Of a stretch of DNA of 64,000 nucleotides, positions 427 to 61,900 are shown piece by piece. The notes under the pieces were generated by a model. The model was not told the DNA's origin and searched no databases. It saw only the letters and a program-made list of their open reading frames with translations. Numbering within the stretch: the first letter of the stretch is position 1; every line of letters starts with the position of its first letter. Made by a program: the position numbers and the translations under genes. The DNA is from Macrocystis pyrifera. Lineage: Eukaryota > Sar > Phaeophyceae > Laminariales > Laminariaceae. Location: NCBI GenBank assembly GCA_031763025.1, contig JASSKH010000001.1, positions 15,787,142 to 15,851,141 of the forward strand, read 5' to 3'.

Positions 427-3400
427 GATGAGGGGGCTATCTAGCGGAGACTCGAGGCTGCGTAAAAAGTCCGGCGGCAGGTTTCGAGACGCCGTCAACG
501 CCTCCACCGACCCAGGCGGGGCTTCCCCCGCCGCACCGTTCGCCGCAGTGCCACCCCGCCCAAAACCACCGCCTCCGCCGCCGCCGCCGTCGCCATCCTC
601 CTGCCTAAGACGTCCGAACGGTACAAGGTGGGCAGAGGGAGAGGCGAGAGGGCCTGTTGTGTCCAATCCTTCGACGAGCTCGAAGGAGAGAGAGCGGGCT
701 ACTCCCAACATCACTTCCACCACCAACACTACCAAGACCACCACAACCGACTCCCTCAACCGCCGCCGCCCCCACCGCCACCCCAACCACCACCACCACC
801 ACCCCTGCCCCCACCCTTACCCCCAACCCCCCCCCCACCCCCTATCACCATCATATACCACTACCGACGATGCTACTATTACGGGGGACCATAGTAAATA
901 CGACCTACGCTACACACAAAAACCTATATAATTTTCTATTTCTACTAACAATACTTGGTCCTATTAACTATGGCCCCCCCCGTGATAGTGAAAGGGCCGC
1001 GGTTTTACCCGTTGACTGTCTCCCGCGTCACTGAGACCAGTATAATAAGGCCAATAAAAGCTTTGACGCGAATGCAAAAGAAGTTTATCCCTTGAATAGC
1101 ATATTTACCCACCACCACAACCACCACCACCAAACATTTTCGGTATGTAGCTAGTCTCACCGAACAGCCTATATACACAGCGTCACGGACTATGCAGTTT
1201 ACGAAACCCACCATCGTCACCAAAAAACCCTCGCAAGTCTCGTTGTTTCGGTGACCACATCACACAGAGCGTGCATCTAAAGGAAGAAGAGCCGGCACGG
1301 GTGGGTCACTGGGCGCGCGCGCTGGGTGACGATGAGTGGAAACAACGGTTGAGCCCTTAAGCTTGGGACCTCAGTGGCGAGGGGGGGGGGACTGACGACA
1401 ACAACTTACGATTGCTTCTGCCGCAGTAACGATCACCGCGCAAAGAGGGCATGAAACGAAACCAGTGTCCGAGTTACGCCGCAAGGACTCGTACGTACGT
1501 ACGTACGTGCGTACGTACGTACGGCATGGGTGCGCAACTCGACCCCTGCCCGTGCTGCTGAGGGCTCACGCTAGATGGTTGATAGCACCATAAGTTACCA
1601 ACCATCGTTTTGGTCGCTACATATGTCTCGGGTTGATTAGAAGAACACGCCGACTCCCCTCCCTCCCTAGGGTCATACGACTACGGCCATGCATGATAGT
1701 GAGTACACCTGCCCCCCCCAAAATTGTATATAGGTTGGGTTGGCGTCGGTTGGCAACGACACTGTAAAACATGCCGCTCACTACTTGAGCTGGACAACCA
1801 GGGTACCGTTTTTTTTTCCTTTCTTTTTTATTTGGCGGTCGGTCACAGCTGGTGGTCGAATTAGATCATTTGTGCGCAGTGAAGAACCTCTACTCCGCAC
1901 AAGGGGAATGGTCGTATCACGTAGTGTTCAAGGGAAGGCACCCAAGAGGCAGTTGCATAGTACTCCCATTGCTGTCTCTGGAAGTGGCTACACCGGAAAT
2001 TAAATCAACTAATTGAAGCTGTCATCCATATGCAAGTCCGACTCACAAGCGGTTCTTAGTAGGATGCAGCTCACCCTTCAAGCGACTTGCCGAACACCTC
2101 ACGGCGATTCGCGCTTGGTGCACGCACTGTATGCGTGGTCGGTGAAAACCCGACGTGCTCCGTCCCGGCATTGTAGGGATGCGAGGTTCTATGGTCATAC
2201 GACTACGGCCATGCATGAGATCGAGTACATTCCTCCTATCGAGTACACCTTTCCCCCCCCCCCCCCCCCACCAACACCGCGGCGAGAGAGGAAGGGGATA
2301 ACATTAGCAAAACATTTTCATGTAATATATGGAAACAACGTAATGGGCGGCCGAAATGTTGACGTGTCTCTACAAGGATTAGGAACGGTACTCCTCCGTC
2401 TCGAAAGGGATGCGTGGTCAATGGTCAAATTACTCAAGGCAAGCAAGAAATGAGTACCCACCCCCCCACCCCCCGACCCACACCTGGTGGCCATCATCCT
2501 CGTCGCCCCGTCGCGCATCTCCTTCCGCACCTCCTGGTCGAGCAGCTTCCTGTCCAGGTTAATTCGCCCCAGCGACTGCATCGCGGGCTCACGGAGAACG
2601 GGAAGGTCTCGCAAAAGTGCACCTTGCAGCTGCAGGAGGGTCATCAGACCCCCCTGGATCGCCTGCGGGTGGGCCACAATAAGACCGAATAGTCAGGGGC
2701 ATGTAGGGGAACAAAAAAGTACAAAGCGCAGGGGCAAAAGACCAAACAAGACCAAATTGCAGAGGCAGGGGACCAAATAAGACCAAATTGGAGGGGTAGG
2801 GGACCGGATAAGACCAAATTGGAGGGGTAAATAAGGGACCAATATTAAGACCAAATCGTAGGGGTGGGGGACCAAATAAGACAAAATTGCAGGAAGGGGA
2901 CCAAATAAGACCAAATCTCAGGGGGGGTTGGGGGTTGGGGGGAAAAAAAAGACCGATTGAATAGGTAGGGGACTCAAAACTAAGACCAATTCGAGAGTGA
3001 ACCACACGACACGAAGTTGCAACTATTAAAAGCGATCAGACGCCTTAATGACGTCACGCCAAGCCACTCCACGCCACCCCACGCAACTCCACACCACACC
3101 ACATCACACCCAGCCGTCGTATGCCTGGCAAAGCTCTTCAGAAATGCCTTGATAAAAGTATCCTGTTCTACATTAATGAAGGAGGGGTTTGTCACGAAAC
3201 TGAACGGGAATTTTTTGCAGATGGTGAGATTATTTCCGGTTTCGGCTCACGGCGGTTACCACCCCGACCCGGAAGTCTACCTCTAATTCCGACCCTAACC
3301 CTAACCAGCGGCGTACTTGGTTCGCGTGCCAGCTGGTCCTTATTCTTGGAAAGGCTCTATTTGCTGTTCGGGTACATCTAAGGGAGTTCGCCCGAATGGG

Positions 3401-6400
3401 CTGATCTACGCGAACACCACCACACCACACCGCACTACCCTACCCTACCCTACCCGACCCGATCCGACCCGACCCGACCCGACCCGACCCGACCCGACCC
3501 CACCCCGCCCAACCCCACCCCACCACACCACACCACACCACACCACACCTGCCGTCTCTCGATCTCGATGTCCTTAAGCTTGCCGAATAGATCGCCGAGC
3601 TTATGGCTGACCCCGCTCCAAATCCTGGCTTGCTGAGTTACGGCCACGCGATAGTTCATGTCAGCCAGCCACACGTCCGAGCGAGTTACATCTAGATGCC
3701 AGGAGAGAGAGACGAGGTGGGGGGGGAGGGAGGGAGGGAGGGAGGGAGGGAGGGAGGGAGGGAGGGAGCGACGCAGGGCGGGTGCTTGGAGTTACTCAGA
3801 GTTGGGCAGAGCCTGGCAATTTTCGAAACAAACTGCCGCGTAAACAGGCACGTATATATGACAAGTACCCCTCTGGCCGGAAAAAGAAGTCACTCGTTAG
3901 CTTCGTCTCAAGAGCATCTAAGGTAGGCTGTACTGTCGGCCAGCGTGGTGTAACTACGTGAGAAGGTTAACAACCGTCTTGACTCGATTTTAGCCGAGCG
4001 AACGCAAACAGTGACAAAATGCGGTCAAGCAAATCAAGCAGCCTTCAAGGCTAGAGCGTGCAGCCGGGCTATAGCCCCCTCCGACTTGATAACAGCATAA
4101 CCAGCCGCAAGAATAATGAACGACGCGGTCATACACATACATCAATCAGCCTTCTTCGTAGACTAGAAAAGAGCTTGAAGCGGAAAAGACTCTTGCCACC
4201 GTCATGTATGCGCTGTCTGCGCGCGTCTTTTTCACATTTCCCCCCTACGTCGAGCTTCGGAAGCAAAACCCCCTTTTCACCCCAGCATATACCCGGGCTG
4301 CTTGCTTCGTGCAGCCGATGCTGTAACCGTCATCCATCACCAATACGGGGGGGCATAGTAAATAAGACCTACGATATACACAAAAACCTAGTTATTTCCC
4401 TTTTTTTATCATGAACATTTGGTCCTGTTTACTATGGCCCCCCGTAATAGGGCTGGGCGAGCAATTTGTACTGGCAGTAGTAGTGTACTGATTGACCCGG
4501 CCAGTATATCCGCCAGTAATTATTGCCGTACGATATCATAGCACGGAAAACCCAACGAACGCGTTTCGAGAGGACAGAGGAGAGAGAGAAGAGAGACAGC
4601 ATACTGCTGCAATCCAGTATACTGATCGATTTTGACGACAATCTAGTTAGTCGCTATCGACCGAGTCAGCCAGTGCCCAGCCCTATCCACAAACCCACAG
4701 TATATATAGGTCAACAAAAATCTGAGCAAGCTTAAAAACGTTGTGACAAAACGAACGACATTGAGCGTAATAGACCATTGCACGTATGCATTCCCGTAAG
4801 GATATATAGGGTAGCGCTCGCCGCTGAGCACGATTTCGTACTCCAATTTTCTTAGCGTCCACCCAAAAAAAGCGAACCCATATTTTCTTATTGAATACCA
4901 CTCCGGGCGGAAATTTAAGGGCCGATTGGTCTTGGTATTAACGTATAAACAGTTCTTATATTTCCAACCAGAGCGGTACTAATAGGTTATGTCTTACTCG
5001 TGGGCCTTATACCATGGTACTAAATATGTGACGAAAATATAGGGGAGGCTTTCATGTGAATAGGAGGCCTGCTACGATAGAGGTATCTAGCACTTTTAGG
5101 CCAAACTGTCACTGGGACAGGGGTCCTCGACCCAATATCGCTGGAAAAAAACGAAAGTGTTTTTATTTTACTATATTTACTCGTGACGTACCTATTAATG
5201 GGCTTTGGGATTGATTGTTCGTCGGGTTCTTGCTCATCTTTTTAGCTTTTCTCGGAATCAGTTTTTGGGTGCTACCGCTGCAGGTATCGAGGAATTGATG
5301 TATTGAGCTCCTCAAGTAAGGAAGCCCCAGAAAACTTGGGAGCTCCCCCTGCCGAAGCACGCCTCGTTTGTACTCGAAACATTCCTTCTATTTTGGGGGG
5401 ACATAGTGGAATGATTTCGGAATCACACCTTTCATTCTTTTATCCAAACCCTTAACGCGTTCCTCTTTTTGCGAAATTAATTCACTAATCAACCTGATTA
5501 TTTACTGTAGTACGAAATGGTAACACTTCTTCCGTCAACCATGTATATATGTACACTTTTCGTATTTTTTTTTGCGACACGATTTTGGACATGACATTGA
5601 TGGCTTCGCGTTTTTTTTTTTTTTGTCGTATCGTGCCCCTTGAACCCCGAAGAAAAATATAATGTACCTGATATCATCTATTCTCTGCCTATAAGGCACA
5701 TAACTTATTTTTTCGGCACTACACTTTTCCCTCTTATCCACACCCTCAAGAAACGGCACACACGTTTTCCCAGACGAGATGCTCGGATTCAAGAGGGTCA
5801 CATTTTTTCAGTGGTGACCAAAGGGTTCACACCTCGCACAGATCATGATCTATCTACCTACAGATAGATCATCTATTAATAGTTCCTCCCCTGCCGTTGT
5901 CTAAGGTTGTGCATGACCTGTATAGTGCAGGTCACACCCAGGAAATATGTGCAACAAACACACAGTAAATCATGCAGACTACACGGCTCCCAGCCGGCAA
6001 GATGAGCTAAATCATACAGATCATACAGATCAGATAAATCAGGAATATATCTGGCCTGAGAGATCTACATCGTCAAGTGGGAATGGTCTACAGACTATCT
6101 GTCCGGAGTGGGAAACCCTCAAGAAACTGCACGCACGTTTTTCCGGGGCAAACTTAACTCGCGCACTCAGTCAGTGTCGCGATGATTTTTCAAGAGCAAA
6201 AAAAAAAAAGCTTCAAGTCTTTAAAGGCTTATTTGTTACCACTCTCTCCCGAAACGTGAAGACACTTCGTATACAGCAGTAGTGCCGGTCCCTCTCTACA
6301 ATAGTGCCGGTTGAGTAATGCCGGCTGCCTGCTATAGCGCCTGTGAAATAAGGCCTTGGCACGTACGGAATTCACCAGTCAGTGTGTATTAATAGTGTGC

Positions 6401-32310: not shown

Positions 32311-32766
32311 CGAAAAAGGATGCAGCTCACCCTTCATGCGACTCGCCCAACACCTCACGGCGCTTCGCGCTTGGTGCAATGTCTGCCTGATCGGTGAAAA
32401 TCCGACGTGCTCCGTCCCGGTATCGTAGGGATGCGAGGGTCTATGGTCATACGACTACGGCCGTGCATGATCATAAGTACACCCATGAATACTACCCCCC
32501 GCCGCCGCCGGAATTGTAGGGATGCGAGGGTCTAGGGTCATATGACTACGGACATGCATGACGTAAGTACGGCCCCACCCTGGGCGTTATAGGGATGCGA
32601 GGGTCTAAAATCATATGACTACGGCCGTGCATGACACGAATAAGCAATGTCTGCCTGGTCGGTGAAAACCCGACATGCTCCGTCCCGGCAATGTAGGGAT
32701 GCGAGGGTCTATGGTCATACGACTACGGCCATGCATGAGATCGAGTACATCTCTCCTATCGAGTAC

Positions 32767-32820
<54 letters not shown>
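32311..32820 (+). repeat. Rep-A with four tandem 3' cores and a poly-C tail of about 53
   Basis: From GGATGCAGCTCACCCTTCAT the element reaches its 3' core, then repeats GGGATGCGAGGGTCTA...CATGCATGA-like cores three more times (near 32517, 32590 and 32695). It finally ends GAGTACA plus a C-run at 32768-32820. Confidence 0.85.
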
Positions 32821-32822
<2 letters not shown>

Positions 32823-33682
32823 CCTTGTCCAGACAAGTCTACAGTCGCGGCGACCCCACCGCCGCTTGCCTTTGGCGCACGCGACGCCGAGATCATGGCG
32901 CGGCGCGTGCGCGAAAGAGGTATTTGTTGGACCCGCAACTCCAACAACCAGTTTTTTCACAATTTTTTATTCGTACTTACGAGACCGACAAGCCTCTCGA
33001 CAACCAGATGTTACGATTTCACGGTGTTTGTTAGACTCACAGCCCCAAAAACCAGATTTTATTACGATTTTACATAAAAGTACTGATGTATACGTTCGAC
33101 TCACAACTCCCGCTACTAAATACCAGTACCATGTTTTGCGATTTTACAGGTGGTTACTTGACGCGTAACACCCCACAACCAGCTTGTTCGATTTGTTTTA
33201 CAAGCAGTATTAATTTGACTCACAACTTCAACTATCAGTACCAAATTTTACACGTCTACTTTCTTTACCGCGACGACTAGTTGGTGACCCGCGCTCGCTT
33301 CTTCACTTACGAGGAAAATGGTGATTTTTCCGGACACACTAAGCCACACCGAATATCACATTAATTCGCCGGATACATCATATATAGACTGTAGAAAGTG
33401 TTTCCCCGCGTGCCCGCTAAGTTGTTTGAAGCAGCTCTTGAAGCGTTTCGGGCGTCTGCCGCGAGCGTATCCACCCCCCCCCGGTCTGCGCCCCGAGCGA
33501 CAATGCCCTCCTCGCCCGCCCCCTTTTTCTCTTAAGGTTATCATGAGGGCCTCCCCCACCTGCCGCCGCCGCCGTCGCCGCCGCTGACAGCGCCTGCGCG
33601 GGTAACATCGGAAACCTCTCCGAAGTCTCACTCCGTCCTCTTCTTCCTTCTCCATTTTGATCTGCTCCGCCATTTTTGGGGC

Positions 33683-35064: not shown

Positions 35065-38000
35065 CCTCGGACGGCGCTGTCCCGGCTTGGACTGCAGTCC
35101 GCGTCGCTGCCTGGGACCGAGTCTCCGCAGCAGGGGCGGCGGAGGCACGGGCCTGAACGCTATGGCGCCCCCGCCGGCGGCAGCTCCCGCGCCTCCGTTA
35201 CCGACACTGCCACCCTCTTTGTAGAGGCGCCAGTGAGGATCGTTTTCGGGGTCGTCGTCATCTAAAGAGAAGGGAAGGGAAGGAGCCGATGGATAGAGGC
35301 CGGCTTTCGTTAGCCGCGAATTGAACTTTAAAAATACGCGAGGATCATTTTCCGTGATCACGTCATCAATCGCCTGCATCAGTAAAAGCGAGAATTTGAA
35401 TAGGCATGCGGATACTAAGAGGACAAAATATAAGCTCCGAAGCCGTCACACTGAATAAAGAGTAGAATGCACTATTGGCCAAGCACTGAAACCAGCCTGA
35501 GCCAGCATTCCTATTTGTTACTTCGTTGTCCTGTAATGTGTCAGTGTCATACTTCGTACCTTGGTACGCCACCGAGCTTATATCTCTCTAGGATGAAGAC
35601 CCACCGCGGACACTGGGTGCGGTGGATGTCGACGGGGGGAGAAACAACGGTTTAATGTGAAAGACACAGACACAGGACATACCTGTCGTCATTGTTGTAA
35701 ATTATTGCATGATTGAAACAGTTAATTCCGATGTTTGATACTGGTATATTGCACTCATCCTTTAGGTGTCACCCATGGTTCCGCTATTTTCGTTAAACGG
35801 TCTGATCGATCTCGGGCGCGGCTGATCCCTTCTTAGATCTCGGTCCCTTGCAACTCAGCAAACCGAAACGCGAATTAACTCTCCGCTCCTAGCACAGCTT
35901 CAACCCCGTCGACAAAATGCGGCTAGCTGCAGCTGTGTAGCAGCAGCGGAAACGGCAACAGCAACAACAACCACACCACCATACCCACCACCACCACCAG
36001 CAACAGCAACAACAACAACAACAGCAACTAATAACACCAACACCAACACCATCAACAACACCACCAACAACAACGTTCGCGAAGCCCAAGACTTCCTCGA
36101 CTAGGAACGCCCTTTCACCCGGTCTCAAATATGTCTTCGACTCCACCGACAGCTCATAGCCACACGCTGCTGTGCACTCACCGACGCCGAACCCTTCCGG
36201 CCCCTTGCCACCGGATGACGAAAAACGCCTCCCGTCATACCCTCCACCTCTTTCTCCTCGGCGGTAAGAGTCTAACCTCCGCGTGGCCCCCGAAAGGGGG
36301 TCGAAGGTCCCGACGGTGTCGGCTAAACCGACCCTAGCCGACACCGGCGTGGGACCACTCCACCCCCCTCCTCCTCTTCCTCGCCGTCCTCCTCCTCCTC
36401 CTCTTCCTCCACCCCTCCTTCCTCTCACCCCTCCGTCTCCTTCTCCTCCTCTTCTCATTCCTCTTGCCCCTCCATCTCCTCCTCCTCCTTCTCCTCCTCC
36501 TCCTCCTTTTCCTCCTTCCCCCCTCCTCCTCCTTCTCCTTCTCCCCCGCTAGTTTCCACCGCTGAGGAACTAGAGAAAATCGGAGGTGGACGGTGGCCGG
36601 AAGGGAAACGAGAGGAGCGAGATAGAGTCGACGTTGGAAGGGTCGAGAAAATATTGTTAAGAGTCGGGGAGGGAGCAGGGGGACCGAGGGGGGGGGGGGA
36701 GGGGTGGGTGGCGCCGGAACTTCGGGAAAATATAAGAGCCATGGGAGGGAGGCGGGGGGGGGGGGGGGGGACTCATTATCATGAATGGCCGTAGTCGTAT
36801 GACCATAGACCCTCGCATCTCTACAATGCCGGGACGGAGCACGTCGGGTTTTCACCGACGAAGCAGACATTGCTTGCACCAAGCGCGAAGCGCCGTGAGG
36901 TGTTGGGCGGGTGGCATGAAGGGTGAGCTGCATCCTACTAAGAACCACTTCTGAGGCAAATTTTCTTGCTTATGGATGACAGAGTCAATGAAGTGATTTA
37001 ATTTCTTGTGTGGCCACTTCCAGAGTCAGCCCACTGTGCAACTGCCGCGTGGGTGCCTTACCATACACACACTACGTGATACGATCATCCCGCTTGTGAG
37101 CTAAGGTTCTCCCCTCACAAAAATGACCTAACTCGACCACCAGCCGTGGTAACCTACAAAAACATAAACTGTACCCTGGTTGTCTAGCTCACGCAGCGAG
37201 AGGCGTTTTTTACAGCGTCGTCGCCAACCGACGCCAACCAAACCTATAGATACATATACCAGGTATATAATGAGGAGGGGGGGGGGGGGGTGAACTCATT
37301 ATCATGCATGGCCGACCATAGACCCTCGCATCCCTACAATGCCGGGACGGATCTACGTCGGGTTTTCACCGACCAGGCAGACATTGCTTGCACCAAGCGC
37401 GAAGCGCCGTGAGGTGTTGGGCTGTCGCGTGAAGGTTGAGCTGCATCCTACTAAGAACCACTTTTGAGGCGGATTTTCTTGCAAATAAATGACAGCGTCA
37501 ATCAATTGGTTTATTATTTGGTAGCGTGGCCACTTTCAGAGACAGCAATGGAAATATCATGTAACTGCCTCGCGGGTGCTTTGCCATATACACACTGCGT
37601 GATACGATCACCGACCAGGCCGACACGGACTTGAAAATAGTTTGTTGGGTGGGGGTGTAAACAATCCGACGGGGAGGTACATATGGCGAAACCTAAATAA
37701 GCGCACACGCTCAAGTCGGCAGAGGAATAAGGTAATCGCTCGTCCAAATGGTTCTGCGCGGCTGACAAGAAACAAAACGGAAGTGAGTTCCCTACCGCAG
37801 CACCGATCGATTAAAACAAAATATTTCCGAGCAGTATCAGGAGCGATTTTCCTCTCACCGACCACGCTCGATATCAAGCGATACCATGTTGCGTGCAAGT
37901 GCGCCAGCGTTTTCGACACTCGTCGTAGTCGACTTCATAGTTGCGGGCGAGGGAGAATTTCCCAGGTAGGCTTTCCCACCGGGCGGCGGGCGTGTTTTTC

Positions 38001-41000
38001 TGGTCCTTTTCGTGGGGCGCACGGGAAGTGAGATGCGACATCAACAACGACAAGCGTGAGCGTAAGCGTGAGCGTAAGCGTAAGCGCAAGGGTAAGCGTA
38101 AGCGTAAGCGTAAGAGTAAGCGCAAGCGTAAGCGTAAGTACGCTTCAGCGTAAACGAAGGATAAACAAAAAATTGTTGCCCCCCTCTTTAGCGAACGCAC
38201 GCGGTCAACACTCGAGTGTATGTCGCGCGATAGACGGGGGGGGGGGGGGGGGGACGGGGGGTAATCGATATCATGCATGGCCGTAGTCGTATGACCATAG
38301 ACCCTCGCATCCCTACAATGCCGGGACAGACCGCGTCGGGTTAGACCGACCAGGCAGACATTGCTTGCATCAAGCGCGAAGCGCCGTGAGGTGTTGGGCG
38401 AGTCGAATGAAGGGTGAGCTACATCCTACTAAGAACCGCGTGTGAAGCGGACTTGCACATGGGTGATAGCTTCAATAAGATATTTTATTTTCCGGTGTGA
38501 GACAGCAATGAGGGTACTATGTAAATGCCTCGTGGGCGCCTTGCCATAAACACTACGTGATGCGATCATTTCCCTTGTGCGGAGTAAATATGCTCCACTC
38601 CTCACAAATGATTTATGATCTATATCTCGATCGCCAGCTGTGACCAACCACCAAAAACAAATCGAAACAAACGATACCTGGTTGTCTCGCTCACGTAATG
38701 AGCGGCATGTTTTACAGTGTCGTTGCCAACCGACGCCAACCTAACCTACATACCAGGTATAATATATAAGGGGGGCACGAAGTAGTATGCACACGGTAGC
38801 CACGCGGCTGCCGATTGCGTCTGTACACCAGATGCGCCGTCGGCTGCATCCCGACAGCAGCAAAAGTACCGTAGTAGTTCATGCTACTGCAGGCCGGATC
38901 GAGCTCCCTCCCCCCCCCCCCCCCCCCCCTCTCCCCAACCCCCACCCGGGAGGCAGGCATGCTTCAGAATGATCCTCAAACTCCTCAGATCGAAAATAGT
39001 CGTCAATTTTTTCACCGCTGCCGCCACCGCAACGGCCTCCGCTGCTGCAGCTTCTCTGCCCACATTAAGGCCTCCTAAGAACGCCCTTCTGTACGTACGG
39101 TGTGTACGACCGGGACTAACCCGTGCATCGTGTGTTTGGAGGACCGTCGTAACAGATGGTAGACTCGAGAGTGCTACGATGGGATTAAGCGTAGCAGCCC
39201 CATGTTTGTGAGGCTCCTTCACCCAAGAAGCTCTACCACCGCCCGGGTACCCACCCAACAGCCGCCTTTTTGACACCAATTGTAAGCCAACTGCGATGCA
39301 CAATTCCATACATGGGGCTAACCAGGCATCTCAAAAAACAAATGTCGCTTTAAGGTATGTATACTCAACTGATCCAAACCATGTGTTGGTACGTAGCTTC
39401 TCACTGGTCCGTCAAGTAGAATTTTTCACGCTGAAAAAGTGCAACCCTCACCGGCACGCTCGCGAAATCATGCGCCCAACGTCAGAGTGTTGACAGCTTA
39501 CAGTGAAGTTTTATTCAGACGAACGGATGCGCTTTCAAAGAAAACGTGAACATGTTCGGCTTTCGTTCGGTAGAGTGGCCCGCGTTAAGCCATTTGTGAG
39601 GCGCTGGGAGCAGGGCAGACCAGATCGATCAAAATCAAAGAACAAACGGGCTTTGTAATATTTTGAAGCCGTGTTTTCTACCCCTCCCTGTCCCCCCACC
39701 CCTCTGTTACCTCTTCGAAAGCAGGGCCTCGCATCTCATCCACTCCCTCATGGACAAGGACTCCGGGTTGTAAATTCAAGCTATCGAGCAGAGGCGGCTT
39801 GATTCAGAAGAAGAGAGAGTTACATAGCGTTACACGGAACGTTTTTCGAAGAACACCAGAGCGCGCGGGGGAGCGGGGGCGGGGGCGAGGGGGGGAGAAT
39901 GGAGGGCGGGGGCGGAAGTGGAGAGGGGTGGGGACTCATGTCACGCATGGCCGTAGTCGTATGACGGGGGGATATAGGGGGTAAAAGCAAAAACGTGACG
40001 CTAGAAGGCGTGATTCTGGAATCGGTTCAAGGTTATCGAGGCCGTACGATAGCTTTCTGCAGGGTGATACTAACCAAAGGCACGCTGTCGACAAAAGAGG
40101 GAGCTCCTTGCGGCGGGGGGAGGGGGGGGGTACAGTTGCCTCCGGTGCCCACCCTTCAAAGGAAATCGATGTTTGGCACTGCCACTCTTATAAAAAAAAT
40201 CGAGCTGTGTCAAGCCGTCAAACAGAAAGGCCCGAAGGCGACAACAGTACACAGCATAAATGGCTTGTCGTTGCGGGAGGGCACCTGGAACGTTGCGGAC
40301 ACTTTGAAGAAGCGGTCTGGACGGACACTCTTCTTCCTTCTCCTCCTCCTCCTCCCTCCGCCTCCCCCGCCGCCACCACCACCGCCGCCCCCGCCGCCAC
40401 TGATAGAGTTGCTGCGCTTTCTTGCCCCGCCTCCACCCTCACCCTTTCCGTCCTTCCCTCTTCCTCCTCCTCCTCCTCCTCCTCCTCCTCCTCGCGAAGC
40501 CTCGCTGCCGTCACATTTCTGCTGCCGCGATCCGGTTATGGTGTGGGTAGAAGACGCGGAGTTTGCATCGCCGCCGCCGTCGTCGGATTCCCGTGTCTTC
40601 CCCCCCTCAGCCGCCGACGGGGGCACTCGAACCGCAAATCGGGGCATGACCGGCACGGGAAGCTTCTCCTGCGACAAGAGGTCGGTCACCAGGATCTGCC
40701 AGAAATGGTAGGGAGGAGGGAGGGGGTGGGGTTGGGGGAAGGGGAGAGGGAGCATGGGGGCACGGTGGTGGGTGGAGGGACGGTGGTGGGTGGGGTAGAG
40801 AGTGGGTGGTGGGGTGGGGTGGGGAGTGGGGGGAGGGATTAGGAAGGGGTTAGAGTGAGGGGGCGGGACGGGGGGGAAGGGGGGGATGGGAGGGGGGGGG
40901 GGGGCAGGTAGGTGGGGAGGGAACGTGCTTTCGGTGTCGAGCGCGAGGTTGTCCAGGATCTGCTTTGTTTCACGGGTTTCGAAGATATGCCGAGGGGTGT

Positions 41001-43240: not shown

Positions 43241-43251
43241 CTGCGCAGCGC

Positions 43252-43560
43252 AGGACAAGACAGGACAGGACAGGACAGGACAGGACAGGACAGGACAGGA
43301 CAGGACAGGACAGGACAGGACAGGACAGGACAGGACAGGACAGGACAGGACAGGACAGGACAGGACAGAACAGGACAGAACAGGACAGGACAGGACAGGA
43401 CAGGACAGGGCAGGACAGGACAGGAAAGGACAGGACAGGACGGGACAGGACAAGACAGGGCAGGACAGAACAGGGCAGAACAGGACAGGACAAGACAGGA
43501 CAGACAGGACAGGACAGACAGGACAGGACAGGGCAGGGCAGGGCAGGGGACAGGGCAGGA
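43252..43560. repeat. (GGACA)n pentanucleotide array
   Basis: About 60 ACAGG units, becoming GGGCA at the right end. On the minus strand, CCTGT, it leads into the acceptor CTGCGCAG at 43241. Confidence 0.95.
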
Positions 43561-43776
43561 CAGGACAGTGCAGGGCAGGGTAGGGAAGGGTAGGAAAGGG
43601 TAGGGAAGAGCAGGGCGAGGCCGAGTCGGTTGGTTTCGTTTCGCGTTTGTGGAGAGCGGAGCGGCAAATGGGGGGCATTAGAGCTGGGCAGGCGGGCGGG
43701 CGGGTGGGCGGGCGGACGGACGACGACTAGGCGGGTTGCGCAAGGTGCACGGGTTAGGAGAGGGATGAAAAGGATG

Positions 43777-45686
43777 CACACCTCGGATAACGTAACACTC
43801 GGATAACACTTATCTACGTTATGGGGCCTAACACAGGAACGTGGTAACGTACTAACATAGTGTTAGCACTAGAGGAGCGATCACGGTAACGCAGTAACAC
43901 AGTGTTAACTGGAAACCCACGAACGTGCACGAGCCTTAACGTTATATTGCTGCTTGGTCTCGTCCAGCTCTGGTACAGTAACATTATGTTATGCCGTGAT
44001 CAGTCCTTGAACTAACACCGTAACACAGTGTTAGGCTTTGACCAAACACGTACGTTATCACTCTAACATTCCCAGATCGATATCCGCATATTTACTAACA
44101 CGATAACATAATGTTATTGTCGACGCAGCGTTAGACGTAACACAATAACATTATGTTACCCGTAGGAGGAGTGTTATACATAACACCCTAACATAACGTT
44201 GCCATGTTCGCCAGCACTACTAACACATAACATTGTGTTACAGATAACACACTAACGTAACACAACGCAATGACCAGCACTACTAACACTACGTTATCTG
44301 GACCCCCCATCTGATTGCGTTAGGGTCAGATAACGTAACACTTAACGTACGTTAGATACGTTACAGTCTTAGCCGGCCCACACGAAACATTATGTTAGGA
44401 TGTTAGCCTAAATGCGGAAGTCCCTGTAACATTATGTTACGGTGTTACCGTCAGTAAAGATCTGATGGTAACATTCGGTTACCGTGTTACCATAAAAACC
44501 AATCCGGGTCTAACTTTATGTTACTGAGTTACCGTTGGGGCCGAAGTCGTTCTAACGTAATGTTACTACGTTACCCTTTGGATCTTCCCGAGATCTAACA
44601 TGTGTTACCTGTGTTAGTGGTAAAGCGGGCGTGTGGGAGTAACACAGCGTAGCCGTGTTATCCAATTTCGCCGACATCCCAAGAGGGGATACCTACAAAA
44701 ATATCCCCGGGGGGGAGGATAGCATGGCATCCCCGGTAAAAAACGCCTCTATATTTTAAAACCCCAAAACAGGGGATATTTAGGAGGGATCCCCGCAAAA
44801 AACGCCTCATTTTTCTTTGTGGAAACCCCGCCAGTACGTTATCCATCTATACACATTACGTTATCCATCTATAACGTAATCTGCACACTCGCACGTACGA
44901 GTTAACACGGCAGTAACATATTGTTGACTTTAGATTGGGGGTGTACGTTATCAAATAACTTGTGTCACTACATATATTGCATACGAGTTAACAACATTAA
45001 CTTAATGCTATTAATAGTGTTTTATCGATCATATACGTTATCCGTTTGACGTATGTTATGTTGTTATGGTAGCAAGACTTCCGTAATAATACCCTCACAT
45101 AACGTCGCTCGAAACGGACTGCTGCTGCGGCTGATACAGTAACATACTGGTAATGACAACGTGTTGACCATACACGCCATCTCTCTAACGTGTGTTACGA
45201 TAGCCCCTAGGAATTTCACTAACACACTAACATAGAGTTATGTACGCGTTTATATGGCCGTGTACGTTATCCGTCGAAAGGGTGTTACGGTAGCACGAAG
45301 AATCCCGCTGACACACTAACATAACGTTACTCGCTACGGGCTGATGTCGCTAACACGGTAACATAATGTTATCGTTTAAGTGACCATGTACGTTATCCCT
45401 TTAACGTGTGTTACGGTAGCCACCAGGAATTCCGCTAACACGCTAACATAGTGTTACTCGCTATGGGCTGCATACCCTAACACCGTAACACATATACTGC
45501 GGTCACTACGAGATCAAGGTACACTCTAACATAATGTTACGCGATCGCCGGCAATATCATGACACACTAACACCATGTTGTCACAAAATCCAGAAAGTAG
45601 TTAACGTAGTAACGTAATGTTACGTGTTTTTTCGATGACGCCTAACATTAACATAAAACGTTAAGTGTTACGTTATCCGAGGTGTG
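43777..45686. mobile_element. 1,910-bp non-autonomous DNA transposon (hAT-like) packed with TAAC/GTTA palindromes
   Basis: Both ends carry a perfect 23-bp terminal inverted repeat that begins CACACCTCGGATAACGTAAC. The flanks are an exact 8-bp direct duplication, AAAGGATG, at 43769-43776 and 45687-45694. An 8-bp duplication with CA...TG ends is typical of hAT elements. There is no transposase. The interior is a dense field of TAACAT/ATGTTA half-sites in both orientations, often fused as GTAACATTATGTTAC-like palindromes, about one TAAC or GTTA every 12-15 bp by eye. A core at about 44655-44850 is different: it has ATCCCC/GGGGAT blocks and a repeated AAAAAACGCCTC. Confidence 0.9.
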
Positions 45687-46331
45687 AAAGGATGATAGGC
45701 GTTAAGGCGAACGTTCCGAGAAGACGGGGGGATTTCTTTGACAGCAGTAGTAGCATAGTCTAGCAGAACAGGGCTCGGCACGTATTGCACCGTTTTTCTT
45801 TGTAGTTTTTTTGCGTCTTTTCCCCCACCTTTTACCTTGCACCATACTCAAACAGAGCAGCCAGGTATATGCGGGGATACGGTATACCAGGTACTATCTA
45901 ATTTGGGAGTGGAGCTACTGTTCACACGGGAAATGTTATCTGTCGAACGTTAAAGCCGCGGTACACTATGTGCGAAAGCTTATCGGTGATGTGCTTATGT
46001 ATAGTCACGTGACTTACTATATATACTAACTGCTTGATGTGGGTACCGCAGTGCTATAAACGCAGTTGCATGTATCCGGCAAGTCCTTACGCACGTCCTT
46101 AAATATGATGCCTCTACGAGAAGATGGGTTTTACCCGGTAGACAATCTAAATATTTTTACGGCTTTCAGTCAGGCATCATTCGATTCCTGTGTCGCCGAC
46201 CTCTCTTCGTCCTTTTGTTTTTGAGGTATATCAGTATCACTCACGCTGCACATTTAGGGTTGCAAATAAAATATGAATGCGATGATCGTTCGAAAGTATG
46301 GTGGTGGCGCACGAGCGAAACAAGAACGAAC

Positions 46332-57900: not shown

Positions 57901-58965
57901 GAATAGGGGTCAGTGTTGGTTCGGGGTCAGGGTTTGGGGCAAATGTTGGGGACTAGGGGTTCGGGTTAGGTATTTGGGGTTAGGTTTGGGGGCTGAGACT
58001 ATAGGGGTCAGGGGTTAGCGTTAGGAATTTGGAGTTAGGTTTGGGGACGAATACAGGTTAGCGTTAAAGATTTGGGGTTAGCTTTAGGGGTAGCATTTGT
58101 GATTAGGTTCAGGTAGTGCTACGTACCTTGTCGCTGTTTGCTTGTTGTAGTCGAAATTGCTGCAGTTCGTTGTTTTTATATCAACTCGTCGCTGTATTAT
58201 AATATGTGGTCGCAAGACAGGCTTGAATACCTCTGAAGTGAGAGAACACAAGCAAACCAGGAAAAAAACTCAACCACCTTAGGCAAATCTGTGTGCAACC
58301 ACCAAACAGCGCACTGTGCAGCTACTGCCCGTATTAATCAAGTACCCCCCCCTTTTTCCGCTGCCCCCCCCCCCCCCTTGAATAATCCTTCCTCTCCCTT
58401 CCCTCACTTATGTGGTCCTTCTGATGGAGCTTTTCCGTGCCGCGGTACTAGCTGTTAGCGCTATTAATACCTGTCAGTTGCTGTCAGTTTTTGGCTGTAG
58501 TAATCCCTTACTTTCCTTTCACTTTATTTCCCTTCCCTCCCCTTGACGCACCTCTCCTTTGTTTCCTTTCCCCAACGAACCTTTTCCTTGCTTTTCCTTT
58601 CCTTCCTTTCTCTTTCCCTCTATCTTTTACTTTCCCTTTTTCCTCCCCTTTCCCTTTCGCTTTCTTCTCGCTCCCCCCCCCTTCCCTCCTCCCTTTCTCT
58701 TCTGCCTCTTCTTTTTTTTTTTCTCTCGTGTCATAAGATATGCGTGGCCAACCTGGGCGATTCTAAGTGCGTGCTGGCGACGCTGGTGAACGGTCAAGTT
58801 TGCGCCGTGCCGCTATCGGAGGACCACAAACCCGACCGTCCAGATGAGAGGCAACGGATTCTAGCCTTAGGGGGTCAGGTAACGCGGACAATTTTCGGCG
58901 TTGTTGCTGCTGCTACTTTTACTGCAGTAGCTGTCGTTTGCTGTTGTTGCAGTTGTTGCTGTTGC

Positions 58966-58996
<31 letters not shown>

Positions 58997-61900
58997 CTTA
59001 TTCTTCTTGTAGTTGTTGTTCTTGGTGATGGTTTGCTTTTTTTTTCCAGCAGACGGATGCTGCGTTGGTGGTCACCCCACCATCACCACCACCACCACCA
59101 CCACCACCATCACCACCAAAACCAACATCACCTATACCACCACCATCGCCACCGCCACCGTCAACACCAGCACTAACACCAACACCGCCAATACCAATAC
59201 CAGTACCGACACCACCAACACCACCACCACCACCAACAACAACAACATCACCTATGCCACCGCCACCGCCACCGCCACCGCCACCGTCAACACCAACACC
59301 AACACCGCCAATACCAATACCACTACCGACACCACCAACACCACCACCTCCACCACCACCACCAACATCACCTATGCCATCGCCACCGCCACCGCCACCG
59401 TCAACACCAACACCAACACCAATACCGACACCAGTACTGACACCACCAACCACCACCACCACCATCACCACCATCACCTATGCCACGCCACCGCACACCA
59501 ACACCAATACCAACACCAACACCGCCAACACCACTACCAACACCAGTACCAACACCACCGACACCACTAACACCAATACCAACACCAGTACAACCAACAC
59601 CACCGCGCCCGTGTCGCTCATCAATCGAACACGATTGTTAATCGAGAGCAAGGAACCCAACGAGCAACGTACCTATTAATAGTAATTGCAAGGGCACGAA
59701 CCACAGCACAGGCTAAACAAAGGTTTTAAATCAAAACTGCAAATGTACGCACGTCGGGGTTATAGGTTGGCCGAGCCGGAGCCGCTCCAAATATCCCGAA
59801 TAATTTACTTTGGGCGTTTTTTCCGCTGCGCTTTTCGATCGACTAGAAACCAAAAAGTCAACGAGTGCTATGATTAGGGTACACAGTATACCTGGCAGCA
59901 TTTTCTGACCGACGGATTTCCTTCCCCGAGGAAACCACACTCCTATGGTTGGAACTTCCCTTTCGCCATTTTTTTCATGTTATTGTTCCCGCTGCATGGC
60001 CCACCTACGCCATTTTTTTATTGTTCACACGTTCTTTTGCACCATAAACTCATTTTTTGGGGTTTAAGGTTCCTACGGAGCTCCCTAAGGGAGGAAGCAG
60101 GCTCATAAAAAAAAACACCTGGTACTGGTAGGTGCTATTAAAAATTACCCCTACCTATCGTAGCATGCGTCAAAAACCATCCAACACGCGTGCCGTAAAA
60201 TGAGCAGGATAAAACATCCCGTGGTATATTTTTTCCCGAGACGAGGTTTATCCAAAACAAGCGGGAGGAGGGCACACACACGAAAAGGGACACATACGTG
60301 GCTTTAAAAATGTGTTGCCGAGATTTTTCCGGAAACGTATAGCATAATGCCGCTCGGTGTTTTTCTTCCCTGTCCCCATGATTGTCGAGAAAAGCCTGGA
60401 AATTCGTCCAAATAGTGTGTTGTTATCTTGCGCGGTACAGCAGTGCACGATATCGTTTCCCTCTATTGCCGAAAAATAATTAATCCACACTCGCTCAAGT
60501 CCTTAATTAATTAATATAATATACCCCTAACCCTGTAAAAAAGTTTTCTTGTATCCTTGTAAGACAGAGACAACGAAAAAAGCATGGTGCGGTATGTAGG
60601 CGTGCATCTGGAATTTTTCTTGGGGCTCCTCGCTTCGGGAGGAGCTCCATACCTCAACATCTGCAGACTTTGTTTTTTGGATAACGTGTACCAGGCAGGC
60701 TTAACCCGACAAGCAATTATATTGCCGACTGGTAAGTGCTACCGAAAATTATTGTGCAACACAAACTAACTAACAGGACATACAAGGCGCTTGGCTCCGC
60801 GAGCGGTCTACGCCGTCCGCTACGCTCGCCCAGGAAGGAAAAGTACATCAAATTATGCTAAGCGGACAGAGGTCCATGTTTGAATATAGTTTTTTATGAT
60901 TGTAGTTGCAAACTGGCGCCTTGATAATGCCTAAAGTCCCGCCCCCATGCTTCAGGAGAAAACAGCTAGGACGCCACATACGCTTCGCGTCGCGGGCGGT
61001 TCCGCCAGTTACGCTCGCTCACATGTTGTACGTACATACCCCAGGTAGGGTACTTATTTGCTTCTTTTTATATGCTGTACCAGGTATGTCTGTACTCGTA
61101 TGCACGAAAGAGGAAGCACAGGAGGCACAACAGCACCGCGAAACAATGAAAATGAAACCGAAAATTTCGAAAAGAAAAGAAAAATCCTAGTCACCTCTCG
61201 CGTAATAATTTCCTGCCTGATAGAAAAACACCTTACACCGTACTCGTACACCGGCCAACCAGAAAAAAAAAAAAATCGAACAGCAGAGCTTCTATCTCAG
61301 CCTCGTACGCCGCCCCGCCCCTCTCGCGACCACCTCGCCACCGATTCGGTCCGGGTAAAGTGTTCCTCCCTCTCTGCCACAGTGAGCCCCGTCGCCCGCC
61401 TCGCGTGAAGCCCGGTGCTCACCGTGGACCTCGTTCGCCAGCTCGACAATGTTGGTGTGCTCAGACTGCGTAGCCCTCTCTGTGAACTCCACCTTGGTCG
61501 CGAAAATAAGCACCGCTTGAATTTTATTTTGCATGTCGAAACGACCGTTATAGACTCGTACATAGTACAACTGGAGCCACACCAGGAGGCCAGACAGAGC
61601 CCATTCCTGCTTCCCTCGAGTCTCGAGGCACACGCGACGACTAGCCACGAAAACGGCGACCGCGCTCCTTGCAACCCCCCCTTCACCCGCCATCACCCGT
61701 TGACACCCGCGACGGTGCCGCGCTCGCCCGCGGCGCCGTGCTCGGAGTACACGCACGCACACAAAACGAAAGAATAAAAGAGGAAAAAAATACTGAAAGT
61801 GCCAAGAGAACTGGAGAAAACAAAGAACCGCTGGAAAGGTCCGGCAAGTATTCAAAGGAGGCGATGTCCAAGTGGGAGCTCTGAGAGGCCAGGGATGTAC

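Follow-up and report, generated by a model that had tools for sequence, protein, structure and literature searches.

A non-autonomous transposon family of the brown alga Macrocystis pyrifera with a phased array of putative binding sites

The element and its termini

The window analyzed here, the whole stretch of 64,000 bp from contig JASSKH010000001.1 of Macrocystis pyrifera, contained a transposable element of 1,910 bp at positions 43777–45686, coordinates that were exact when checked. The element was bounded by 23-bp terminal inverted repeats (TIRs), CACACCTCGGATAACGTAACACT on the plus strand at 43777–43799 and its minus-strand counterpart at 45664–45686, which matched at 23 of 23 positions; the ends start with CACACC, and two TAAC half-sites lie in the inner part of the left repeat. 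The 8-bp target site duplication was exact, with the left copy at 43769–43776 identical to the right copy, AAAGGATG, at 45687–45694. The perfect inverted ends and exact duplication given in a preliminary description of this DNA were thus borne out. No stop-to-stop frame of at least 110 aa lay wholly inside the element, and one minus-strand stop-to-stop frame overlapped its first 86 bp; the element contains no transposase gene and is non-autonomous. Elsewhere in the window, a (CAGGA)n-type microsatellite array at 43245–43616 ended 160 bp to the left of the element, an exon of a PP2C protein phosphatase (Pfam PF00481, E = 4e-13) was located at 58504–59025 on the plus strand, and a dispersed repeat recurred many times, for example in the open reading frames at 32644–33168 (+), 36334–36969 (−), and 37874–38425 (−), the translations of which share variants of one peptide.

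The element was rich in the half-site TAAC and its complement GTTA, with 62 and 52 occurrences, respectively, giving 114 half-sites in 1,910 bp. Against 200 dinucleotide shuffles (mean 34.6, sd 5.9, maximum 51), this was a 3.3-fold excess, and the rate inside the element was 13-fold that of the remaining window, at which 8.6 half-sites would be expected. The enrichment noted in the preliminary description was confirmed, with one half-site every 16.8 bp and not every 12–15 bp as claimed there. Its picture of a body made almost entirely of half-sites was not upheld, as about one quarter of the bases were covered (466 of 1,858 aligned non-end positions in the window copy), and the segment at 44661–44837 contained none. 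The half-sites were not scattered; many belonged to modules (spacings of 8 and 9 bp) that recurred with a phase of about 42 bp.

Modular organization of the array

The module was 21 bp long, with the form TAACAC-nn-TAACAT-n-ATGTTA, in which a direct half-site is followed by the 13-bp palindrome TAACATnATGTTA, and it was found in both orientations. The commonest distances between half-sites in the window copy were 42, 8, 34, 51, and 9 bp. At a lag of 42 bp, 37 pairs were counted against approximately 7 expected per lag, and the family consensus contained 51 such pairs.

Modules were forward in the left part of the element, reversed in the middle, absent in the core, and forward again on the right. 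The left array occupied 43845–44265 (+), mostly at a spacing of about 42 bp, and the reverse-orientation array occupied 44343–44660 (−), with modules 42–44 bp apart. The 177-bp core at 44661–44837 (element positions 885–1061) was free of TAAC and GTTA, and the right array at 44838–45663 (+) combined forward modules with ACGTTATCC words, complementary to a word of the inner TIR; it was less regular at first and best phased from approximately 45087. Near the orientation flip, at 44326–44348 (+), lay an internal copy of end-proximal sequence (GATAACGTAACACTTAACGT type) that was 96% complementary to 45658–45680, and in the family consensus this internal end-like sequence matched the right end of copy L057 at 23 of 23 positions. 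Growth by duplication was still visible in a higher-order tandem repeat of about 127 bp (approximately 3 × 42) within the right array at 45247–45490 (+; 1.9 copies, 80% matches), as well as in other direct and inverted duplications.

The 18 informative module columns were 0.70 identical across 30 units of the window copy, while the 21 spacer columns were 0.272 identical, against 0.251 expected from base composition. The units were chosen by module score, which itself raises module identity; the spacers had no part in the choice. Across 26 units of a consensus of seven copies, module identity was 0.783 and spacer identity 0.282. A few pairs of units still had related spacers, a trace of recent duplication. 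The highest module score elsewhere in the window was 12 of 18, compared with up to 18 within the element. As the spacers were near random and the words were kept, the array is a series of conserved words placed at regular intervals; a neutrally diverging satellite would have kept both alike.

The family in the M. pyrifera genome

The genome searched comprised 537,376,219 bp in 223 contigs, and the accessible text of the assembly report likewise gives 537 Mb and 223 contigs (PMC10498591). The exact 23-bp end occurred 531 times (271 + 260), and a reversed control occurred 0 times. The listing covered 100 of the 531 exact-end places, and the loci retrieved were 20 with paired ends, 20 with mostly unpaired ends, and six further places. 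Target site duplications were compared in 36 pairs, including the window copy, with ends at no more than 3 mismatches and 0.8–8 kb apart, single-end loci being dropped. Thirteen pairs had a perfect duplication, 13 had one mismatch, and 10 had a worse one or none. Nine of the 26 duplication-bearing pairs (L009–L015, L026, and L037) shared one site, leaving 18 independent sites. These nine loci were one 1.6-kb copy with the same GAAGTTTG duplication, six of them on contig C126, and this copy has been multiplied together with the DNA around it. Two pairs retrieved later stood outside the 36-pair count, L057 without a duplication and L058 with the perfect duplication ATCTATTT. The consensus of the 18 independent sites was NAANNTTN, with A2 in 16, A3 in 14, T6 in 13, and T7 in 17.

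An empty paralogous site was found for L024, which lies inside another repeat. Its flanks, joined with one copy of the duplication, matched other copies of that repeat, and 40 of the 51 matches listed ran through the join, the remaining 11 being short and on one side only. This search scored 40 of 3,269 candidate places, and the site is paralogous, not allelic. The repeat hosting it is small and very abundant (the same 3,269 candidate places), with ends like GGGGGACCATAGT / ACTATGGTCCCCC, and a relative of it was also present within the 1.6-kb version of the transposon.

With inverted ends, 8-bp duplications at 18 independent sites, and an empty site, the family is a TIR DNA transposon that has moved in the past. 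A genome search for duplicated ends had been proposed in the preliminary description, and its outcome, with many copies, independent duplicated sites, and an empty paralogous site, agreed with the non-autonomous transposon family envisaged there and ran counter to a single copy with no empty site. The suggestion of recent movement gained partial support; the ten 1.9-kb copies averaged 3.8% divergence from the consensus, and many duplications were degraded.

The phased-array pattern was detected at 287 places genome-wide and at 0 in the control. Fifty of the 287 were listed, and 20 of these were compared with the consensus by script. The spacers of 19 were well above shuffles, while those of the twentieth (C129:2940912) did not score clearly above them, but it lay inside the family copy L037. 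All 20 places compared thus belong to the family, and a plain satellite outside the inverted ends was not seen among them. Several array places were away from any listed exact end and are presumably decayed copies.

Ten 1.9-kb copies carried 82–118 half-sites each, and the family consensus carried 124, above every one of them. Words resembling binding sites are spread over most of the element, as the preliminary description had proposed. Ends with unusual next bases numbered 12 and 22, and the five retrieved (L049–L052 and L058) were of the same family. At 1,348 bp, L051 was without most of the right array, yet its ends and its duplication were both perfect. The missing part may therefore not be needed, provided that the deletion did not follow insertion. 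In other collections, from which records near this genome may be left out, viral contigs gave 0 matches for the end and the array, and genome contigs gave 0 for the end.

Probable constraint on the half-sites

When the ten 1.9-kb copies were compared with the consensus, which was built from seven of those ten with the window copy included, half-sites had changed at 3.83% of positions (177 of 4,620) and spacers at 3.75% (519 of 13,853). This equal decay indicated that mutation does not spare the half-sites and that inserted copies decay neutrally. Variation among eight copies of the family was 0.063 in half-site columns and 0.074 in spacers, which was not significant, as 185 of 1,864 label shifts were as extreme.

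Comparison of the consensus with two old copies gave a different result. Against L041 (68% identical, left 900 bp only), 35 of 198 half-site positions and 183 of 483 spacer positions differed, and 0 of 680 label shifts were as extreme. When the half-site labels were taken from other copies, the difference from L041 persisted, at 22/139 versus 199/553 with labels from L025 and 21/126 versus 200/566 with labels from L042, with 0 of 691 shifts as extreme in each. The full-length comparison with L042 gave 51/426 for half-sites and 242/1282 for spacers (1 of 1,707 shifts); it was weaker with labels from L025 (43/328 versus 248/1380; 40 of 1,707 shifts) and, in the left part, with labels from L041 (15/114 versus 137/684; 55 of 797 shifts). 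Half-sites in these two oldest copies tested had diverged at approximately one half to two thirds of the spacer rate. The ratio of half-site to spacer change departed from the within-family ratio with p = 0.004 (L041) and 0.006 (L042), values that are rough as cells were pooled over related copies. The alignment filter discards badly aligned spacers, a bias that runs against the constraint effect. For L025, the counts of 25/430 and 114/1282 (57 of 1,711 shifts; 153 of 1,711 with labels from L042) were suggestive only.

No constraint was detected in L035, which is also diverged (half-sites 57/302, spacers 169/1018), in L048, L017, or L016, or in the 1.6-kb type (20/268 versus 68/1116 with third-party labels; 1101 of 1383 shifts as extreme). 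We read the unconstrained copies as decay, since a history spent mostly inserted and decaying would look alike; this interpretation was made after the data were seen, as was the decision on which copies count as lineages. The slower divergence of half-sites against L041 and L042, both old single copies, suggests that half-sites are probably kept by selection. The comparison of equal decay in young copies with constraint between lineages offers a means, from sequence only, of seeking selection on mobility in non-coding transposons.

Superfamily and search for an autonomous partner

The preliminary description called the element a hAT relative. The hAT dimerization domain (PF05699) had at least 150 matches in the genome (150 of 317 candidates scored), and inspection by eye placed two of these within 10 kb of listed ends, on contigs C189 and C132. 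The gene near C189:3155072 was rejected as a partner, as it is the neighbor of the complete copy L057 and outside the element; the pieces of hAT transposase at L057:2945–5065 lie in minus-strand frames 2945–4129 and 4463–5065, approximately 1.5 kb from the array element and outside its ends. The match on C132 lay approximately 7 kb past the right end of the element in L019. No hAT gene lay within these ends among the listed ends compared with the scored PF05699 matches, and a search around four other hAT genes for half-site density and TIR likeness yielded nothing.

The longer end pairs were also inspected. Open reading frames read by eye in L015, L023, and L016 showed no transposase; L023 appeared to contain retroelement pieces, and the copy in L015 contained a nested open frame of 1,249 aa (L015:872–4621) that reads by eye as a LINE endonuclease with reverse transcriptase. 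The longer elements L011 and L019 were compared by BLAST only, and nothing was recognized among the frames in the L035 inserts. L041 was rejected as a coding relative, with no Pfam match reaching the cut-off in the 10 of 33 listed frames tested; 1,501 bases of its interior gave self-matches only, except at one edge, where a common repeat lies, and in a single weak hit. At L041:401–1330 lies a relic about 30% diverged with an exact left end, and the DNA past its array, which is close to single copy, may be what remains of a longer ancestor.

Target preference varies within hAT, and the A2/T7 preference of the kelp family does not therefore exclude that superfamily. T2 with A7, the Hermes preference, occurred in 0 of the 18 sites. 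A six-frame genome scan for the Kyakuja-Dileera-Zisupton (KDZ) domain PF18758 gave 0 matches with an equally silent control, and KDZ genes can have 18–31 exons according to the available text of one report (PMC9297572). An autonomous relative, which the preliminary description had suggested looking for, was not found among the loci examined. Its assignment to hAT went unsupported, with no hAT gene inside the ends, a target consensus opposite to that of Hermes, and an 8-bp duplication that is not diagnostic, as Zisupton/KDZ elements make it too. Membership in hAT is possible.

Candidate reader of the array

The inner half of the 23-bp end consists of array words (GGATAACGTAACACT). In the consensus interior, the TIR words ATAACGTA, GATAACGT, and CGTAACAC occurred 11, 9, and 7 times, respectively, while the outermost 8-mer, CACACCTC, occurred 0 times. 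Matches to the complete inner end, with 4 mismatches allowed at most, numbered 8 in the consensus interior against a mean of 1.0 and a maximum of 6 in 40 shuffles, an excess that was only moderate. In many transposons, cleavage occurs at the tip and protein binds the inner part of the end. Since the array and the inner end are built from the same words, the most economical candidate for the protein that binds the array, and the most likely one, is the end-reading transposase, supplied in trans. We consider it reasonably probable that the family is a non-autonomous cut-and-paste transposon with binding sites arrayed in helical phase along its body.

The 13-bp palindrome would suit a dimer, with the third, direct half-site 8 bp away. 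A repeat of about 42 bp corresponds to four turns of B-DNA, so successive units would face the same side of the DNA, which would favor cooperative loading. Loading along the body could raise the local concentration of transposase, and a regular protein coat lining the element might aid pairing of the ends, allowing the element to compete well for transposase encoded elsewhere. Selection on transposing copies would then keep words and spacing, leaving spacers free, while each inserted copy would decay neutrally. We infer the identity of the binder, dimer binding, the coat, and the gain in mobility from these features. We advance more tentatively the full form of this proposal, in which nearly the whole body is a helically phased scaffold for a transposase that the element does not encode, with the four-turn spacing selected for mobility and the phase of the sites heritable.

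Several other readings of the array were weighed. The strongest is an anti-silencing function, in which the words would bind a transposon-encoded factor like VANC and keep chromatin open for transposase. As described in the available portion of the source, VANC motifs are short and densely packed, multiply in tandem within non-coding regions, and differ from one related element to another (PMC5735166), and spread over the whole body fits such a factor as well as it fits an end-reading transposase. However, the words make up the inner part of each terminal repeat, and a sequence nearly identical to the end lies at the orientation flip, which points to an end-reading protein; VANC motifs run in one orientation, and regular phasing or palindromes are not described for them in that portion (PMC5735166). 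We regard anti-silencing as unlikely. Phasing at four turns would be compatible with any DNA-bending protein that binds cooperatively, including a host transcription factor or chromatin protein, either because the element was co-opted or because it uses the host protein for nucleosome placement or expression. An element with no gene of its own to express, whose array words are also those of its ends, makes this very improbable.

The visible tandem growth, in the 127-bp repeat and in direct and inverted duplications, would also be expected if a small transposon had captured a plain central satellite whose words have no role, and tandem repeats do occur inside transposons, Tetris and Galileo being examples in the texts available. 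We rejected a plain satellite, as spacer identity of 0.27–0.28 against 0.25 for random sequence means that the monomers are not homologous throughout, whereas the words were 70–78% identical. Half-sites also changed more slowly than spacers against the two old copies, yet mutated equally in young ones, and no array outside the family was seen in the 20 listed places compared; capture of a satellite is thus highly unlikely. The preliminary description had raised a decoy that soaks up transposase, and the half-sites of each of the ten copies, multiplied over hundreds of copies, could indeed bind much protein and lower the mobility of relatives. Selection favors what helps the element itself, however, so that any titration would arise as a side effect; the family has expanded, and its sites seem to have been conserved in the lineage that transposes. 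A decoy or self-limiting element as the selected function is accordingly hard to credit.

If binding by a transposase supplied in trans is the correct reading, the cargo of the element would be a binding array, the sequence between sites would be free, and phase would be a heritable trait. It is an open question why certain elements without genes outcompete the autonomous ones from which they derive. The kelp family separates the sequence of the sites from their spacing and from the spacers, and it is present in hundreds of copies, which makes the effect of site number and helical phase on mobility directly testable.

Comparison with known systems

Binding sites in subterminal regions, transposons carrying tandem repeats, and arrays of motifs each have precedents. 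A gene-less element with a body given over largely to a phased, apparently selected site array was not found in the literature surveyed, some of it available in part, which does not prove its absence from print. Non-autonomous hAT elements such as those of Ac/Ds and Hermes resemble the kelp family in their 8-bp duplications and the short repeated words near their ends. For Hermes, the available text of one study describes a quasi-palindromic pair of sites bound cooperatively, with exact phasing of subterminal sites being important, and casts doubt on extra transposase binding in cells at sites far inside the ends (PMC10368747). As described there, Hermes sites concentrate toward the ends, unlike the 42-bp array over the whole body of the kelp element. 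The Hermes target preference is given as T2/A7 in the accessible part of another report (PMC8721813), unlike the A2/T7 of the kelp family, for which no linked transposase was found.

The KDZ group shares 8-bp duplications, reported for Zisupton in the part of the source at hand (PMC12730594), and in Ectocarpus, another brown alga, 6,403 KDZ copies were counted against 128 hAT copies, as far as the available text goes (PMC12477816). Within such texts, no array of this kind is described for KDZ elements. The VANDAL/VANC system, which belongs to MULE-type transposons of Arabidopsis, is alike in amassing a short motif by tandem duplication in non-coding transposon parts, by the available account (PMC5735166), but the kelp array lies in a gene-less element, is phased and palindromic, runs in both orientations, and is common to the terminal repeats. 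Tetris and Galileo are alike in having tandem repeats within their terminal inverted repeats. In the accessible descriptions, those are presented as repeats or satellite seeds, whereas in the kelp element only the words persist, set between spacers that bear no relation to one another.
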